Below, in pieces: positions 8,958 to 64,000 of a stretch of DNA of 64,000 bases. The position numbers and the translations under genes are program-made. The notes beneath the pieces were generated by a model that worked only from the letters and a program-made list of their open reading frames with translations, had not been told where the DNA came from and ran no database searches. The stretch is from Pseudomonas karstica. Its GTDB lineage: Bacteria; Pseudomonadota; Gammaproteobacteria; Pseudomonadales; Pseudomonadaceae. The stretch lies in contig NZ_WLYI01000008.1 in NCBI RefSeq assembly GCF_009707515.1, positions 62,001-126,000 on the forward strand, in the 5' to 3' direction. How positions within the stretch are numbered: position 1 is the first letter of the stretch; every line of letters begins with the position of its first letter.

Positions 8958-8978
8958 ACTTTTTCGCGGCCAAAAGAA

Positions 8979-9000
8979 AACCCCGCCGAAGCGGGGCTTT
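8979..9000 (+). terminator. terminator after the LysR gene
   Basis: CCCCGC at 8981-8986 pairs with GCGGGG at 8991-8996 around a CGAA tetraloop, with AAAA before and CTTT after. It follows the LysR stop by about 22 bp and could work in both directions, since the upstream A-run gives a T-run on the other strand. Confidence 0.78.
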
Positions 9001-9184
9001 GCAGACTGTTTCCCTGACATCCATTTCACTCCGCCATCCTGGCAGAATCCTACGTGTCCGTGTTGTTGCTTTGCGCTTCCTGCGCGACGTCCATGTGAAG
9101 TAGATTATCCATGGATCCAATCCAGCGATAGAGGACGATTAGCAGTACGTCATGTAAGAGAAAGCTTACATACCGATACCCTCG

Positions 9185-26347: not shown

Positions 26348-27232
26348 ATGCAAGCCGCCAATCCCCGTCGCGGATACATATTGGGCCTGAGTGCCTACAT
26401 CATTTGGGGCTTGTTCCCGCTCTATTTCAAAGCCATCGCCAGCGTTCCCGCCGTGGAAATCATCGTCCACCGCGTGCTTTGGTCGGCGCTGTTTGGCAGC
26501 CTGCTGTTGATGGTCTGGAAACACCCTGGCTGGTGGCGCGAACTGCGAGACAATCCCAAGCGCTTGGCAGTCCTGGCGCTAAGCGGCTCTTTGATCGCAG
26601 GCAACTGGCTGACCTATGTCTGGTCGGTCAACAGCGGCCGCATGCTGGAAGCCAGCCTCGGCTACTACATCAACCCACTGGTCAATGTGTTGCTGGGCAT
26701 GCTGATCCTGGGCGAACGCCTGCGCCGTCTGCAATGGGTGGCCGTCGGGCTCGCCGCCTTGGGTGTAGCGCAACAGGTGTGGCAGGTCGGCAGTTTGCCG
26801 TGGGTCTCCCTGGTGCTGGCGCTGTCATTCGGTTTCTATGGTTTGATCCGTAAACAGGCGCCGGTCAAGGCACTGCCGGGGCTGGTGGTGGAAACCTGGA
26901 TGTTGGTGCCGATTGCGGTGGCCTGGTTGCTGTTCAACCCCACAGCCCACAGTGCGCAAATGGAATTCTGGGGCACGTCCGAAGCCTGGTGGCTGATCGC
27001 CGCCGGCCCCATAACACTGGTCCCGCTGGTGTGCTTCAACGCTGCAGCACGGCACTTGCCCTACACCACCCTGGGCTTCCTGCAATACCTGGCGCCCACC
27101 TTGGTGCTGTTGCAAGCGGTGCTGTTGTTCGATGAGCACCTGACCTCCAGCAGCCTGATTGCCTTCCTGTTTATCTGGGCCGGCCTGGCGGTCTACAGCG
27201 TCGATGCCTGGCTGAGCCTGCGTAAACGCTGA
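26348..27232 (+). CDS. rarD: RarD-like EamA/DMT-superfamily permease
   Basis: 294 aa with about ten hydrophobic helices. It opens with RRGYILGLSAYIIWGLFPLY, the RarD signature (G-x-x-x-x-x-x-A-Y-x-x-W-G-x-x-P-x-Y), and continues to VEIIVHRVLWSALF. RarD in E. coli confers chloramphenicol resistance, but members are generic drug/metabolite transporters. AAGGA precedes the ATG. The name is by family, and the substrate is unknown. Confidence 0.85.
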   Translation: MQAANPRRGYILGLSAYIIWGLFPLYFKAIASVPAVEIIVHRVLWSALFGSLLLMVWKHPGWWRELRDNPKRLAVLALSGSLIAGNWLTYVWSVNSGRMLEASLGYYINPLVNVLLGMLILGERLRRLQWVAVGLAALGVAQQVWQVGSLPWVSLVLALSFGFYGLIRKQAPVKALPGLVVETWMLVPIAVAWLLFNPTAHSAQMEFWGTSEAWWLIAAGPITLVPLVCFNAAARHLPYTTLGFLQYLAPTLVLLQAVLLFDEHLTSSSLIAFLFIWAGLAVYSVDAWLSLRKR

Positions 27233-27251
27233 TCAAATAACATACAAACCT

Positions 27252-27280
27252 CTGCAAGCCACAGCTATCGTGGCTTGCAG
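27252..27280 (+). terminator. strong hairpin downstream of rarD-like gene
   Basis: CTGCAAGCCAC at 27252-27262 pairs perfectly with GTGGCTTGCAG at 27270-27280, loop AGCTATC. It is 20 bp after the rarD stop. There is no T-run, so termination is likely but not certain. Confidence 0.55.
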
Positions 27281-27295
27281 GCATCTACCCCAAGG

Positions 27296-27416
27296 TTATC
27301 CACATGCGGGTCCCCGGCGTTTGTGCACAACCCCTTGAAACTGCTCGTTTTTTGCCCAACCGAAGAAGAGCCCCGGCGGGTGTGGCCTGGCGCCGGATCT
27401 CTACAGGTTATCCACA
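27296..27416 (+). other. two perfect DnaA-box sequences in the rarD-gcvR gap
   Basis: TTATCCACA occurs at 27296-27304 and again at 27408-27416, both on the plus strand and 112 bp apart, in the 222-bp gap between convergent genes. A palindrome TTGTGCACAA lies between them (about 27319-27328). The nonamer matches the high-affinity E. coli DnaA box exactly. Confidence 0.5.
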
Positions 27417-27454
27417 GGCCCATGCAAGATTTCCATGAACAACGTTGTGGGCAG

Positions 27455-27973
27455 TTATTCCTCGCTGCGCAACTCCAGTTCCACCATCAAGTCGTCGGCC
27501 AAGGTTTCCAGCGCAGCTTGCAGCGTGTCCAGTGACAACGTCGATGGCACCGCCAATGAAGCTTCGGCATGAAACAGTGGGTCACCGCTCATAGGCGCCG
27601 GGCGCACATCGGTGGCCAGGCGTTCCAGGTTGACACCCTGCTTGCTCAGTAACGCGGTAATCTCGCGCACAATTCCCGGGCGGTCATTGCCGACCAACGT
27701 CATCGAGATCGGCTTGCTCTGCGAGGTTTGCCCAGCACTGCTCTCGCCGACCAATACCCGAATGCCGTGGGTTGAGAGATCCTCCAGCGCATCCACCAAC
27801 TCCTCACGGCTTTCAGCCGGCACACTCACCCGCAGGATCCCGGCAAACTGCCCGGCCATGTGCGCCATGCGGCTTTCCAGCCAGTTGCCACCGTGGACGG
27901 CGATGCATTGCGCGATACGTTCAACCAGGCCCGGCTTGTCCGCGGCGATGATAGTCAGTACGAGATGATCCAT
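27455..27973 (-). CDS. GcvR-like ACT-domain regulator
   Basis: 172 aa with two ACT domains: MDHLVLTIIAADKPGLVERI at the start and SMTLVGNDRPGIVREITALL near residue 92. This is the layout of GcvR, the glycine cleavage system repressor partner, and of related ACT proteins that bind amino acids. The window also holds glyA and sarcosine/glycine genes, but about 28 kb away. The start is the ATG at 27973. A REPIN lies just upstream. Confidence 0.82.
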   Translation of the reverse strand: MDHLVLTIIAADKPGLVERIAQCIAVHGGNWLESRMAHMAGQFAGILRVSVPAESREELVDALEDLSTHGIRVLVGESSAGQTSQSKPISMTLVGNDRPGIVREITALLSKQGVNLERLATDVRPAPMSGDPLFHAEASLAVPSTLSLDTLQAALETLADDLMVELELRSEE

Positions 27974-59022: not shown

Positions 59023-59068
59023 ATCGTTTCCACGCGTGGGCATGCATCCCCGGACGCTTCGCGTCCAG
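59023..59068. repeat. degenerate REP next to the transposase start
   Basis: TGATCGTTTCCACGCGTGGG, CATGCATCCCCGGACGCTTC, GCGTCC: a drifted half of the GTTCCCACGC element, ending about 28 bp before the transposase ATG. RAYT genes are typically flanked by their own REPs. Confidence 0.65.
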
Positions 59069-59095
59069 GCCACACCCCAATTCAAGGATGAATCC

Positions 59096-59629
59096 ATGGG
59101 TAGAAGCCGCTACGTCATCACCGAACCCGAAAAGCCGCACTTCCTGACGTGTACCGTCATGGAGTGGCTACCGCTGTTTACCCGCGACTACATCGTGGGC
59201 CGTCTCCTGGATTGTTGGCGATATCAACAACGCCATGAGGCTCTAAACCTTTACGGCTATGTCGTCCTCGAAAACCATCTGCACTTTGTCGCCCAGGCGC
59301 CAGACCTGGGCAAATGCGTCAGCCAATTCAAATCCTTTACCGCCCGCACCATCATCAACGACCTGCAAGACAAAGGTGCAGAGCGAGTCTTGAGTCGCCT
59401 GCGTTTCAGCAAGCGCGCTCACAAGGCGGATCGGGCTTATCAACTTTGGCAGGAAGGCTCACACGCCGAGTTGGTGTATAGCGAAGCAGTGATGCGCCAG
59501 AAGCTTGATTACATCCACCACAACCCAGTGAAGCGGGGATATGTGGATCTGGCCGAACACTGGCGGTATTCCAGCGCCCGTAACTATGCGGGAATGGAAG
59601 GGCTGATCGAGATACAGCGCTGGCTCTAA
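59096..59629 (+). CDS. REP-associated tyrosine transposase (RAYT, TnpA_REP)
   Basis: 177 aa of the IS200/IS605-related Y1 family. The HUH-like pair lies in VLENHLHFVAQAPDLG, and the catalytic Tyr-containing helix in MRQKLDYIHHNPVKRGYV. The start RSRYVITEPEKPHFLTCTVM fits. AAGGA precedes the ATG at 59096 (frame open to 59036). It is flanked by a REP-like sequence on its 5' side and by a large REPIN array on its 3' side, the expected context for a RAYT that mobilises these repeats. Confidence 0.92.
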   Translation: MGRSRYVITEPEKPHFLTCTVMEWLPLFTRDYIVGRLLDCWRYQQRHEALNLYGYVVLENHLHFVAQAPDLGKCVSQFKSFTARTIINDLQDKGAERVLSRLRFSKRAHKADRAYQLWQEGSHAELVYSEAVMRQKLDYIHHNPVKRGYVDLAEHWRYSSARNYAGMEGLIEIQRWL

Positions 59630-59650
59630 AGATCGCAATGATCGCTCCCC

Positions 59651-60140
59651 CGCTCTGCGTCACACCTTGCACAAAGCTTGAGTCGTGCGCGCATGGCGGG
59701 ACGCGGAGCGTCCCAAGAAGCATTCCCACGCGGAGCATGGGAACGAGCGGAGGCCGCAAGATATGGATCGTGGATCGTTCCCACGCTCGGCGTGGGAATG
59801 CAGCCCGTGACGCTCTGCGTCACACCTTGCACAAAGCTTGAGCCGTGCGCGCATGGCGGGACGCGGAGCGTCCCAAGAAGCATTCCCACGCGGAGCATGG
59901 GAACGAGCGAAGACCGCAAGATATGGATCGTGGATCGTTCCCACGCTCTGCGTGGGAATGCAGCCCGTGACGCTCTGCGTCACACCTTGCACAAAACTTG
60001 AGCCGTGCGCGCATGGCGGGACGCGGAGCGTCCCAAGAAGCATTCCCACGCGGAGCATGGGAACGAGCGGAGACCGCAAGATATGGATCGTGGATCGTTC
60101 CCACGCTCGGCGTGGGAATGCAGCCCGTGACGCTCTGCGT
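59651..60140. repeat. tandem array of a 160-bp REPIN unit, three copies plus 10 bp
   Basis: The unit begins CGCTCTGCGTCACACCTTGC at 59651, 59811 and 59971, with a 10-bp start of a fourth at 60131, a period of exactly 160 bp. Copies differ at only a few positions. Each unit contains two hairpins (GTTCCCACGC...GCGTGGGAA and GACGCGGAGCGTCC). Reading frames through it (such as SRARMAGRGASQEAFPRGAW) are by-products of the repeat. Confidence 0.95.
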
Positions 60141-60150
60141 CGCCAAGAGG

Positions 60151-61251
60151 TTAGAACTCGATGCGCACGTCGCCCTTCGGCACGCTGCAGCATGACAGGA
60201 TGTAGCCTTCGGCTTCGTCTTCCTCGGTGATCCCGCCGTTGTGCTCCATTTCGACTTCGCCGCCCAGTTTCATCACCTTGCAGGTCCCGCAAATCCCCAT
60301 GCCGCAGGCTTTGGGGATCAGCAGGCCAAGCTTGGCCGCAGCAGCATGGACGGTTTCGCCGGGCGCCACACGAATGCTTTTGCCTGACGAAATGAACTCC
60401 ACCTGATGCAAATCCGCCAGGTCGACTTCCGGGGCATCCGCGGCTTGTTCGGCTTGCTCCACTGCATCGGCACGGGCTTCTGGTGGCGTCTGGCCAAAAG
60501 ATTCCTCGTGGTAGCGGCTCATGTCGAAGCCATTGGCTTCCAGCAAGCGCTTGACCGCGTTCATGTACGGCGTGGGGCCGCAGCAGAAGACTTCACGCTC
60601 AAGGAAATCCGGCACCATCAGTTCGAGCATTTTCTGGTTGAGGTAACCGCGGTAACCGGCCCACGGCTCACCGAGCCCGTGTTTCTCACAGATCAGGTGC
60701 AGGCTGAAGTTGTCGATCCGCGACGCCATGTGCTCCAACTCACGGTGGTAGATGATGTCTTTCGGCGAGCGGGCGCTGTGGACAAATACCATGTCGACAT
60801 TGGCGTTGGTGTCGTAATACCAGCGCGCCATGGACATCACCGGCGTGATACCGACGCCACCACTGAGGTACAGCACTTTCGGGTTGGTGTAGTCGATGGC
60901 GTTGAACAGCCCGACCGGGCCGTGCACCGCCAATTCTTGCCCTTCATGAAGAGTGTCGTGCAGCCAGTTGGAGACACGGCCGCCCGGCACGCGTTTGATG
61001 GTCACCGAGAAGCTGTAGGGCACCGATGGCGAACTGGAAATGGTGTAGGAGCGCATGATCGGTTGGCCGTCGATTTCCAGCTCCAGGGTGACAAATTGCC
61101 CCGGCTTGAAAAAGAACAGGATTGGCTGGTCGGCCATGAAACAGAAGGTGCGCACGTCCCAGGTTTCCTGGATGACTTTGACGCAACGGACGGTGTGCCG
61201 GCCGTTGGCCCAGGTCTGGGTGGTTACCGGGTTCAGGAAGCTGTTGGACAT
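60151..61251 (-). CDS. gbcB: GbcB, glycine betaine monooxygenase reductase component
   Basis: 366 aa. Ferredoxin-reductase FAD/NAD part (PGQFVTLELEIDGQPIMRSY, GGVGITPVMSMARWYYDT) and a C-terminal 2Fe-2S domain with the cysteines of CGMGICGTCKVMK and CC near the end. It feeds electrons to the Rieske oxygenase GbcA, which removes a methyl group from glycine betaine as formaldehyde. ATG at 61251 has GGAG upstream (61263 is alternative). Divergent from gbcA across 282 bp, with a shared promoter region where a GbdR-type regulator would bind. Confidence 0.94.
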   Translation of the reverse strand: MSNSFLNPVTTQTWANGRHTVRCVKVIQETWDVRTFCFMADQPILFFFKPGQFVTLELEIDGQPIMRSYTISSSPSVPYSFSVTIKRVPGGRVSNWLHDTLHEGQELAVHGPVGLFNAIDYTNPKVLYLSGGVGITPVMSMARWYYDTNANVDMVFVHSARSPKDIIYHRELEHMASRIDNFSLHLICEKHGLGEPWAGYRGYLNQKMLELMVPDFLEREVFCCGPTPYMNAVKRLLEANGFDMSRYHEESFGQTPPEARADAVEQAEQAADAPEVDLADLHQVEFISSGKSIRVAPGETVHAAAAKLGLLIPKACGMGICGTCKVMKLGGEVEMEHNGGITEEDEAEGYILSCCSVPKGDVRIEF

Positions 61252-61533: not shown

Positions 61534-62829
61534 ATGGACGTCACCGCAACTTTAAGCTTGGGCGATCCGCTGGACCCCGCACGCAAGGCCACCGCGCAAA
61601 TGCTGCAAGAACGCGAGCGCACCTTTTCGTTGCCGCAGCCGTTTTACTCTGATGAACGGCTGTTTGATATCGACATGCAGGAAATTTTCCAGAAAGAGTG
61701 GCTGATCGCCGGCATGACCTGCGAAATCCCCAGCAAGGGCAACTACCTGACCCTGCAAGTGGGCAAGAACCCGATCATCGTCATTCGCGGCGCCGATGGC
61801 GTGGTGCATGCCTTTCACAACGTCTGCCGCCATCGTGGTTCACGCTTGTGCACCAGCGACAAGGGCAAGGTGGCCAAGCTGGTCTGCCACTACCATCAGT
61901 GGACCTACGAGCTAGACGGCCGCCTGCTGTTCGCCGGCACCGAGATGGGGGCCGACTTCGACATGCAGCAGTATGGTCTCAAACCGGTGAACGTGAAGAC
62001 CGCCGGCGGCTACATTTTTATCAGCCTGGCTGAGTCCCCACCGGCCATCGACGACTTCCTGTCGACGCTGAACCACTACATGGAACCCTACGACATGGAG
62101 AACACCAAGGTGGCGATTCAAACCACCTTGTTCGAAAAAGCCAACTGGAAGCTGGTGCTGGAAAACAACCGCGAATGCTATCACTGCAACGCATCGCACC
62201 CTGAGTTGTTGAAAACCTTGCTGGAATGGGACGACGTCACCGACCCACGGGCCGACCAGGCCTTCAAGGACCATGTGGCCGCGTCCGCCGCTGCCTGGGA
62301 CGCCGAAAAGATCCCTTATGCCCACGCCAGCTTCGGCCTGCGTAACCGTATCGTGCGCATGCCTCTGCTCAAGGGCACCGTGTCCATGACCCTGGACGGC
62401 AAGCAAGGCTGCAAAAAGCTGATGGGCCGGATCAAGAACCCGGAACTGGGTTCCATGCGTATCCTGCACTTGCCTCACTCATGGAATCACTGCATGGGCG
62501 ATCACATCATCGTTTTCACCGTGTGGCCGATCAGTGCCCAGGAAACCATGGTCACCACCAAATGGGTCGTCCACAAGGACGCCGTGGAAGGCGAGGATTA
62601 CGACGTCGAGCGCATGCGCCAGGTATGGGACGCCACCAACAACCAGGACCGCCGCCTGGCTGAAGAGAATCAGCGCGGGATCAACTCCACCGCGTACCAG
62701 CCTGGGCCATATTCCAAGACCTATGAATTTGGCGTGGTGAATTTTGTGGATTGGTACAGCGAGCGGATGCTGAACAACCTCGGGGCTGAGCCTGCGGCGT
62801 ATCTCAAAGGCGTGGCGGCACACGAATAA
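61534..62829 (+). CDS. gbcA: GbcA, glycine betaine monooxygenase Rieske component
   Basis: 431 aa. Rieske 2Fe-2S site Cys98-x-His100 and Cys118-x-x-His121 (VCRHRGS and VCHYHQW). The catalytic iron site is in the segment ENNRECYHCNASHPELL. It demethylates glycine betaine to dimethylglycine. GAGGA lies seven to eleven bases before the ATG at 61534; the open frame to 61471 has no good start. Divergent from gbcB. Confidence 0.95.
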   Translation: MDVTATLSLGDPLDPARKATAQMLQERERTFSLPQPFYSDERLFDIDMQEIFQKEWLIAGMTCEIPSKGNYLTLQVGKNPIIVIRGADGVVHAFHNVCRHRGSRLCTSDKGKVAKLVCHYHQWTYELDGRLLFAGTEMGADFDMQQYGLKPVNVKTAGGYIFISLAESPPAIDDFLSTLNHYMEPYDMENTKVAIQTTLFEKANWKLVLENNRECYHCNASHPELLKTLLEWDDVTDPRADQAFKDHVAASAAAWDAEKIPYAHASFGLRNRIVRMPLLKGTVSMTLDGKQGCKKLMGRIKNPELGSMRILHLPHSWNHCMGDHIIVFTVWPISAQETMVTTKWVVHKDAVEGEDYDVERMRQVWDATNNQDRRLAEENQRGINSTAYQPGPYSKTYEFGVVNFVDWYSERMLNNLGAEPAAYLKGVAAHE

Positions 62830-62837
62830 CCACTGCC

Positions 62838-62886
62838 TGCAGGAGCGGGCAAGAACTGGGCGTCCCCCTCGCTCCTACAGGGGGAC
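62838..62886. repeat. degenerate REP pair after gbcA
   Basis: GCAGGAGCGGGCAAGAAC on the left and CCCTCGCTCCTACAGGG on the right, inverted halves of the GTAGGAGCGAGC family with a very short centre. Confidence 0.6.
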
Positions 62887-62914
62887 GCGTTGTACAAAAT
62901 TCTTCCTGCCCAAC

Positions 62915-63464
62915 TTATCCACAAAGCCACCCACAGCAATTGTGGGCAACTGCCCTTTCCTATCGAAACAAAACCAAGAAAATCCGTGACTTATTCAAAT
63001 CCACGGATTTAGACCCTCACTGATCATTTTTTAACCTAAAGCCTGCAAGCCACGATCTGCATGGCCTACAGAGGAGCGCAAACACCTTATCCACAGAAGC
63101 ACCAACAGACTTTGGGGGCAACTTCGGGTTATCTGTGGAAAACCCGCTAAAGCCAAGCAGAATCGAGGCTTTGAAGGGATTTACGGGCTGAAATAGCGAC
63201 ATTGATCATATTTTGATCAAACCCATGAATCCCTCTGTTTACATGGCCTGTAGCGGATAGCAAACAACTTATCCACAGAAACACCAACAGACTTTGGGGG
63301 CAAGTCCAGGCCCGGAACTTTCTTAATCCACAAAAAAACCCAAGGAAAACCGTTGGTTAGATTGGTTGTTTTTCGTACAAAAGGCTGCAGAGCTTGATTT
63401 GTATGGGATGTGGGCAGCAGCGAACAGGTTATCCACAGGCAGGCCAACCGAGACTGTGGGTAAA
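62915..63464 (+). repeat. four degenerate ~170-bp repeats, each with a perfect DnaA box
   Basis: TTATCCACA occurs at 62915-62923, 63087-63095, 63269-63277 and 63429-63437, all on the plus strand, 172, 182 and 160 bp apart. The middle two units share a longer stretch (GCAAACA-CTTATCCACAGAA then CACCAACAGACTTTGGGGGC), and the flanks align weakly in all four (ATGGCCT before; a TGATCAT-like block between). TGTGGAAAA at 63134 and TAATCCACA at 63324 are one-mismatch boxes. No gene lies in 62830-63489. Confidence 0.75.
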
Positions 63465-63489
63465 GCCTACCTCGCCGCTCCTACAGGAC

Positions 63490-64000
63490 TTAGCGAACCA
63501 CGCCTTCCTCAATCAACAGTTTGAGAATGGCTTGGGCACCGTCTTGCGGGCTGACACCCTTGAGCACTTGCCCGCCACCGCCACTGGCCTTGGCCGTAGC
63601 TGCTTTCATCCGGTCGGCGCCGCTCTTGGCCTTGATCACCTTGAGGCGCTTGGGCCGGGGTTTGGCCGGTTGCAACACAGCGCCTGTGAATAACTCATCC
63701 TCCAACACCTCTACGTCATGAGCTTCCAATAACCCACGCTGGGCCGGCCCGTAGGCACTTTGTCGAGGCTTGGGTGCGGCGTTATCCACCGTGGCGAGAA
63801 ACGGCAGGCGTACCTTCAGGCGCCGCCGCTGCCCACGGGGCAAGGCTTGCAGCACATGAGCCACGCCGCGCTCGATGGACTCCACCTGGGCCAGGCCAAC
63901 AATCAGCGGCCAGCCCAGTTGTTCGGCCAACAGGAACGGCAGCATCCCCGAGCCTTCACCGGTTTCGGCCTGGCTGCCGGTGAGCACCACCTCAGCGCCG
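63490..64000 (-). CDS. electron-transfer flavoprotein beta subunit-like protein, C-terminal part (partial)
   Basis: At least 169 aa, open at the window end. ETF-beta features: TGSQAETGEGSGMLPFLLAE, near the AMP-binding loop, GWPLIVGLAQVE, and the C-terminal Lys-rich tail. It is diverged from the main EtfB and matches the extra ETF pair linked to dimethylglycine and betaine catabolism in pseudomonads, which would pass electrons from dimethylglycine dehydrogenase to the quinone pool. The N-terminus is outside the window. Confidence 0.85.
   Translation of the reverse strand, partial: GAEVVLTGSQAETGEGSGMLPFLLAEQLGWPLIVGLAQVESIERGVAHVLQALPRGQRRRLKVRLPFLATVDNAAPKPRQSAYGPAQRGLLEAHDVEVLEDELFTGAVLQPAKPRPKRLKVIKAKSGADRMKAATAKASGGGGQVLKGVSPQDGAQAILKLLIEEGVVR

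Follow-up and report, generated by a model that had tools for sequence, protein, structure and literature searches.

What does a cluster of perfect DnaA boxes do in the gap between two convergent genes? The question is raised by a stretch of 64 000 nucleotides from Pseudomonas karstica (the window), in which 660 bp separate the 3′ ends of gbcA (forward strand, ending at 62829; NCBIfam NF058607, 803 bits versus a cut-off of 670) and etfB, the electron-transfer flavoprotein beta subunit (reverse strand, ending at 63490; NF051844, 276.5 bits versus a cut-off of 350, a score that comes from a partial gene as the window holds only part of etfB). The gap contains four exact copies of TTATCCACA, described as the high-affinity DnaA box of Pseudomonas putida (PMC4285127), at 62915, 63087, 63269 and 63429, all on the forward strand and spaced by 172, 182 and 160 bp. 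The original prediction had reported these boxes and spacings, near-matches beside them and repeat homology around them. All are present: the near-matches are TTTTCCACA (63134, reverse strand), TAATCCACA (63324, forward strand) and TTACCCACA (63455, reverse strand), and the homology is stronger than had been proposed, with 77% identity over 111 nt between 63018–63128 and 63200–63310 and a 41-nt unit present at all four boxes (61–78% identity). Elsewhere in the window we found the RsmY regulatory RNA (8977–9094, reverse strand, 126.5 bits) and a REP-associated tyrosine transposase (59036–60292, NF047646); the open reading frames beyond the latter encode recurring stretches of peptide, a hint of REP-like repeats in tandem array.

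The four-box cluster is not due to chance. The window holds 24 box matches with at most one mismatch versus 6.8 expected, a number reached by none of 100 shuffles, and genome-wide the exact box occurs 118 times versus 18 for the reversed control word. If boxes were evenly spread, a genome would have four on one strand within 523 bp ∼ 3e-6 times, a value that serves only as a guide because they are unevenly spread (in the relative G165, see below). Clusters of this kind are not expected by chance.

In a blastn search with 62600–63760 against 199 genomes of the genus, many of the genomes listed showed a block at query positions 312–864, separate from the flanking genes. We call this 553-bp block, which begins and stops sharply close to the first box and the last reverse box, respectively, and carries four tandem DnaA modules, the element (62911–63463, forward strand). 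Searched alone, it has a match in 156 of the 199 genomes (own genome counted, E ≤ 0.001), and on recount 89 of the 199 match over one stretch of at least 440 bp; many of the remaining genomes match single modules only, and 43 of the 199 show no match at E ≤ 0.001. The P. karstica genome has one place that matches at this threshold. Eighty named loci were also found by way of GbcA: 51 have an element match (E ≤ 1e-4), and the other 29 have none within the DNA examined, up to 8 kb on either side. The latter include Stutzerimonas, P. otitidis, P. nitroreducens and other Pseudomonas, as well as three loci that we take to be from Halomonadaceae. In some species the element is several kilobases away from gbcA or etf.

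We aligned matches that covered more than 440 bases of the query and whose core measured at least 480 bp, identical cores being used once, which gave 92 relatives plus the window (93 rows); partial and diverged elements were left out of all counts on these rows. The strong boxes 1–4 are exact in 92, 92, 91 and 91 of the 93 rows, so the boxes are not absent from close relatives, the outcome that would have spoken against the original prediction. Mean identity to the window is 0.998 for the strong boxes, 0.936 for the reverse boxes 26 bp downstream of them, 0.812 for the weak boxes at +12, 0.796 for the Fis-type sites described below, 0.621 for the rest of the element and 0.346 for the flanking intergenic bases; since the rows are relatives of one another, selected because they resemble the window, these figures do not represent independent events. 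We regard the contrast between parts inside the same 93 rows, rather than absolute identity, as the telling point. Selection on the nonamers, suspected in the original prediction, is supported by this contrast.

In the alignment every module has the same layout, the strong box (position 0) being followed by a weak forward box at +12 and a reverse box at +26, positions that correspond to boxes III, II and I of a DARS (see below); best-match offsets were taken from the five commonest outcomes per module. Module 1 consists of the strong box TTATCCACA (62915–62923, forward, exact in 92/93 rows), a weak box (62927–62935, forward, best forward match at +12 in 93/93) and the reverse box TTGCCCACA (62941–62949, reverse), which is the best reverse match at +26 in 72/93 rows, with +36 in 21; in its own genome this module fits the triad pattern used in our searches. 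So does module 2, with its strong box (63087–63095, forward, exact in 92/93), the weak box GCACCAACA (63099–63107, forward) and the reverse box TTGCCCCCA (63113–63121, reverse, best reverse match at +26 in 90/93), followed by the extra reverse box TTTTCCACA (63134–63142, reverse, exact in 92/93). Module 3, which also fits the pattern, has its strong box at 63269–63277 (forward, exact in 91/93), the weak box ACACCAACA at 63281–63289 (forward) and a second copy of TTGCCCCCA at 63295–63303 (reverse, best reverse match at +26 in at least 83/93). Beyond it lies an optional box (63324–63332, forward), TAATCCACA here and TTATCCACA in 26/93 rows. Module 4 comprises a strong box (63429–63437, forward, exact in 91/93), the weak box AGGCCAACC (63441–63449, forward) and the reverse box TTACCCACA (63455–63463, reverse; TGTGGGTAA in 79/93 rows, best reverse match at +26 in 91/92); the triad pattern misses it in this genome because its weak box is poor here. 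Fit to the consensus thus differs by position: perfect at III, mostly 6–8 of 9 at I and about 6 of 9 at II in module 1. Box II is weak by sequence in modules 2–4, since the rows listed with their best forward match at +12 number only 36/93, 12/93 and 43/92. In modules 2 and 3 this box lies in a conserved block, and its CCAACAG is conserved despite the weak overall match.

How does this layout compare with that of E. coli? We take the stretch after bioD to be DARS1 and the stretch upstream of mutH to be DARS2, based on their locations. The former (L210) has boxes at 2108 (forward), 2122 (reverse) and 2134 (reverse), the latter (L211) at 2636 (forward), 2650 (reverse) and 2662 (reverse), i.e. 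0/14/26 in both cases, box I being on the other strand from II and III. When reverse-complemented, the 0/+12/+26 unit of Pseudomonas likewise gives 0/14/26, identical to both E. coli cores. Equal spacing in DARS1 and DARS2, with box I opposite to boxes II and III, is described as a common DARS feature (PMC5742627), and the head-to-head boxes I and II are reported to be essential (PMC10380432). The Pseudomonas modules share the fixed spacing and the opposed orientation at positions I and III, box II being weak in modules 2–4. All of these loci are non-coding. The differences are that E. coli DARS1 and DARS2 have one core each versus four in tandem here, that the gene neighbourhood is another one, and that box III is the strongest in the Pseudomonas modules versus box II in DARS1. 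The E. coli datA stretch that we examined has no such triad in its box list.

The module is found well beyond this locus. Two boxes on one strand, 149–179 bp apart start to start, occur in 98 of 198 genomes of the family (reversed control, 0), and the triad pattern itself occurs in 119 of the 198, in 12 of 19 genera and up to 10 times per genome; the reversed control again gave 0, as did a triad with its reverse box slid by 3 bp (0/198). Twenty box-pair places and 15 stretches picked by triad alone were chosen by hand from the listings, mostly from genomes with few contigs, and because many are the same locus in related species, the number of independent cases is below the number of rows. For the 58 boxes found in the twenty box-pair places, the top reverse offset is +26 (mean 5.05 of 9 versus 2.04 over all offsets; at least 7 in 23/58) and the top forward offset is +12 (mean 4.28 versus 2.10). 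Three of these places adjoin dnaA and the other 17 lie 0.4–1.24 Mb from it. A class-wide search recovered the triad in 16 of 369 genomes, 14 of them outside the family. Five genomes of other gammaproteobacterial families (G456, G397, G471, G620 and G704) carry three perfect TTATCCACA boxes in triad geometry, which are possibly parts of origins.

Arrays of one to five modules were found. One genome (G376:C13:590400-593500) has five modules at a spacing of 257–258 bp and another (G323:C1:6025500-6028000) has three; all eight of these modules have a Fis-type site 65 bp upstream of the strong box (see below). The window itself contains a second element (27231–27465), which likewise sits where two genes converge, in this case those of an EamA-type transporter and an ACT-domain protein. 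Its forward boxes lie at 27296 and 27408, a spacing of 112 bp; the reverse boxes at +26 match 7 and 5 of the 9 positions, and Fis-type sites are present at −65. The stretch 27235–27465 has a match in 161 of the 199 genus genomes. Two further triads, one in the P. karstica genome (C40:85142) and one in a relative (G168:C1:3375612), are identical over 35 bases and have a Fis-type match at −53 and not at −65; the G168 copy is about 2.6 Mb from dnaA. At C17:87372-87394 of the P. karstica genome there is a perfect inverted pair of TTATCCACA boxes 14 bp apart, which is the spacing of DARS boxes I and II, with no clear third box by eye; a pair of the same spacing occurs in G165 at 2126948/2126962. 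Just past the window, exact boxes at C103:126732 (reverse) and 126991 (forward) are 259 bp apart, a reverse/forward pair and spacing also seen in many named relatives.

A Fis-type palindrome is a candidate further component of the modules. We scanned the 93 rows with GNNYRNNWNNYRNNC, which we take to be a degenerate form of the Fis consensus. It matches at 63022–63036 (GATCATTTTTTAACC), 63204–63218 (GATCATATTTTGATC) and 63364–63378 (GGTTGTTTTTCGTAC) in 93, 92 and 91 of the 93 rows, each site being 65 bp upstream of boxes 2, 3 and 4, respectively; for box 2 this distance holds in 93/93 rows. Of all 840 palindromic patterns of the same form, the Fis consensus alone has three places outside the boxes that at least 97% of rows conserve; two such places are seen for one pattern, one for 12 and none for 826. 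A candidate site for module 1 (62847–62861) is tentative: it falls outside the conserved block, precedes box 1 by 68 bp here (66 bp in 87/93 rows), and is G+C-rich and unconvincing in this genome. The stricter published consensus GnnYAnnnnnTRnnC (PMC10380432) fits the first two sites in 58/93 and 53/93 rows and does not fit the third.

The −65 offset was first noticed on the 93 rows and then tested on other loci, where triads were accepted at a cut of 6 of 9 at +26. Among triads of the twenty box-pair places the degenerate consensus lies at −65 in 26/38, with one match at any other offset from −110 to −15. In the 15 stretches picked by triad alone the site is present in 21/28 triads, versus a background of 0.0032 per position, and boxes without a triad in those stretches have none at −65. 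The second element and its relatives, essentially one locus in related genomes, have it at 38/46 boxes. Triads that lack the site number 12/38 and 7/28 in the first two sets; of the own-genome triads in the triad-picked set, the one on C70 has it and the one on C40 does not. Not every DnaA box belongs to such a module: 32 boxes from the first 30 own-genome box loci show no +26 peak, and 31 of them have no Fis-type match at the −65 offset.

In E. coli, DARS2 has a match to the Fis consensus on the box-III side as well, 110 bp from box III and with IHF-like sites between, versus 50 bp from box III in Pseudomonas. We had predicted a Fis site at the equivalent position in both E. coli loci, but neither DARS1 nor DARS2 has one there. 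IHF sites between the boxes, which the original prediction had suggested looking for, did not emerge as a conserved feature: at most 12/93 rows have a match within one mismatch, and within two mismatches 61/93 rows have one at 62981, with nothing well conserved, the Fis-type site being conserved instead. In this respect the element differs from DARS2, which has IHF sites, and from datA, which has a perfect IHF consensus between its boxes. A nearly invariant CGTGACTTAT in the first interval (62985–62994, forward), as conserved as the DnaA boxes, is at best an IHF site with two mismatches.

Box-to-box distances in the 93 rows cluster near 150, 161, 172, 182 and 193 bp, and of the periods tried the 14 distinct distances phase best at 10.5–11 bp (R 0.87, 0.85), with R 0.73 at 10, 0.53 at 12 and 0.24 at 8 bp. 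Judged from these distances, inter-module spacing varies in steps of about one helical turn. In the 12 genomes of exact length the element lies 514 ± 36 kb from dnaA, always on the same side and strand. Twenty more genomes with rounded lengths include 17 that agree in side and strand (one at 1.1 Mb) and three that are mirrored to the other side; the latter fit an inversion around the origin, as such an inversion leaves the distance nearly unchanged. In E. coli the distances of datA and DARS from oriC are described as conserved (PMC4585315).

In the relative G165 exact boxes are unevenly spread, being strongly clustered near dnaA and scarce in the distant half of the chromosome: 31 of 135 lie within 35 kb of dnaA versus 1.5 expected, and 8 of 135 lie between 1.5 and 4.98 Mb versus 77 expected. 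These counts rest on 100 of the 135 places, listed in order; the remaining 35 come after the last of these, no more than about 1 Mb upstream of dnaA. The same trend, a DnaA-box density highest near the origin, is reported for E. coli and Salmonella (PMC12371093); that enrichment concerns genome-wide density, whereas the Pseudomonas element is a discrete conserved element.

The original prediction had called the locus datA/DARS-like. The DARS half of this label agrees with the box geometry; the single direction of the strong boxes and the distance of ∼ 0.5 Mb from dnaA also resemble datA. On balance we favour the reading that the element is a tandem DARS-type locus of four modules, predicted to recharge ADP-DnaA, and it probably helps to time replication. 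Sites, geometry, spacing, conservation and position of the modules can be read directly from the sequences; from them we infer the following mechanism. DnaA would bind the strong box and recruit DnaA to the two weaker boxes. Head-to-head contact of the molecules at boxes I and II would then cause release of ADP, and the resulting apo-DnaA would reload ATP, as at E. coli DARS1 and DARS2. Fis, bound 50 bp away, would bend the DNA and switch the module on in fast growth, which would couple the element to growth; repetition of modules, their phasing and their placement near the origin would provide a higher dosage early in the cycle. Some titration of DnaA would be an unavoidable side effect. Several points stand against the DARS reading: box II is weak, the strong box is III and not II, there is no well conserved IHF site, the stricter Fis consensus fits only in part, neither E. 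coli DARS has a Fis match at the Pseudomonas offset, some triads have no −65 site, and the element has no match in 43 of the 199 genus genomes.

The main rival, which we judge rather unlikely, is a datA-like locus that soaks up DnaA, and perhaps promotes ATP hydrolysis, and whose early duplication near the origin blocks re-initiation. Like E. coli datA, the element is non-coding, lies near the origin and has several strong same-direction boxes 150–190 bp apart; boxes in one direction are a described feature of datA (PMC5742627), which the four forward strong boxes share, although conserved reverse boxes are also present here. One pair of same-strand boxes in E. coli datA is 162 bp apart, and the gap between boxes 3 and 4 here is 161 bp in 48/93 rows. 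The distance to dnaA, about 0.5 Mb in 12 of 12 genomes and about 8% of the genome, is near that of E. coli datA (94.7 versus 84.6 min; PMC5742627), and the density of G165 boxes near dnaA and their rarity in the far half are what titration would favour. However, nothing in the datA stretch that we examined corresponds to the conserved triad, and fixed reverse boxes would be needless for a plain titration site. In addition, datA has its perfect IHF consensus between the boxes, whereas the element has no well conserved IHF site there and has a conserved Fis-type site.

A site of nucleoid or chromosome architecture, at which DnaA and Fis form a looped complex that leaves the nucleotide state of DnaA unaffected, would account for the helical phasing of the modules and for the Fis-type sites; since it leaves the exact DARS box geometry unexplained, we consider it improbable. 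Still less credible is a DnaA-responsive regulator of the gbcA or etf genes, which the original prediction had offered on the basis of adjacency. We reject this proposal, since both genes end ahead of the element here, so that it lies downstream of each, and in some species kilobases separate it from one of the two. A promoter role is conceivable at two loci of other genera (L189 and L191), where two genes on one strand flank the modules and the gene downstream of them encodes a short-chain dehydrogenase. However, the neighbours tested at four other loci are not gbcA or etf: they are the short-chain dehydrogenase and an ornithine cyclodeaminase-type protein at L189 and L191, a lysine-decarboxylase-like protein and DUF2726 at L194, and HupE/UreJ and a lysine-decarboxylase-like protein at L204.

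The tandem DnaA boxes with their AT-rich tracts might also recall a cryptic or relic replication origin, but this is very doubtful: the element is not next to dnaA, which in P. karstica has its own four-box cluster (C26:207 kb; the element is on C103) and in complete relatives is about 0.5 Mb away, the flanking genes searched are not replication genes, and the strong conservation argues against a relic. We give equally little credence to a structured non-coding RNA or a short gene. The block is conserved and intergenic, and at least one row is open over its full length in one frame (184 amino acids), but an Rfam search gave no match at the element, and covariation support for an RNA is absent (12 sequences; covariation term +1.56, 2 of 74 pairs changed on both sides). 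As for a short gene, the longest stop-free stretch ranges from 56 to 184 amino acids (median 90), spacing changes of 10–11 bp break the frames, and no consistent open frame is found across rows. A neutral decaying repeat with chance boxes, or a dispersed mobile repeat, is next to inconceivable even though the units are recognisable tandem duplicates, since the neutral reading is already contradicted by the conservation data, the element has a single place in its own genome at E ≤ 0.001, and the slid and reversed controls gave zero.

The DARS-type reading connects to what is described elsewhere. According to a review, many species of proteobacteria have conserved sequences that resemble DARS1 and DARS2 (PMC10380432), and the DARS2 core is reported to be conserved among gamma-proteobacteria related to E. 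coli (PMC4245941). In Bacillus subtilis and Streptomyces coelicolor, chromosomal DnaA-box clusters are said to repress untimely initiation (PMC5742627); the element is comparable to these, by description, as a DnaA-box cluster. Among the matches listed in a literature search on datA, DARS and DnaA-box clusters together with Pseudomonas, no title or abstract start describes such a locus; the primary DARS paper may mention Pseudomonas. By sequence, the element appears to be set apart from known DARS by its tandem arrays, by its strong box III and by a Fis-type site at a fixed 50-bp linker.

For the Pseudomonadaceae as a whole we would tentatively suggest, without putting it above an even chance, that distributed composite modules, in each of which a 50-bp linker joins a Fis-type site to a DARS-type triad, and which are present singly or in tandem arrays of up to five, replace the single DARS1 and DARS2 cores of E. 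coli. Module number, phasing and distance from oriC may then set the rate of DnaA-ATP recharging and so couple initiation to Fis, i.e. to growth rate. As the module specifies concrete sites, bases and spacings, it makes DnaA recharging outside the enteric bacteria directly testable, and the arrays of one to five modules would provide a natural series in which to see how module number and position set the timing of initiation.
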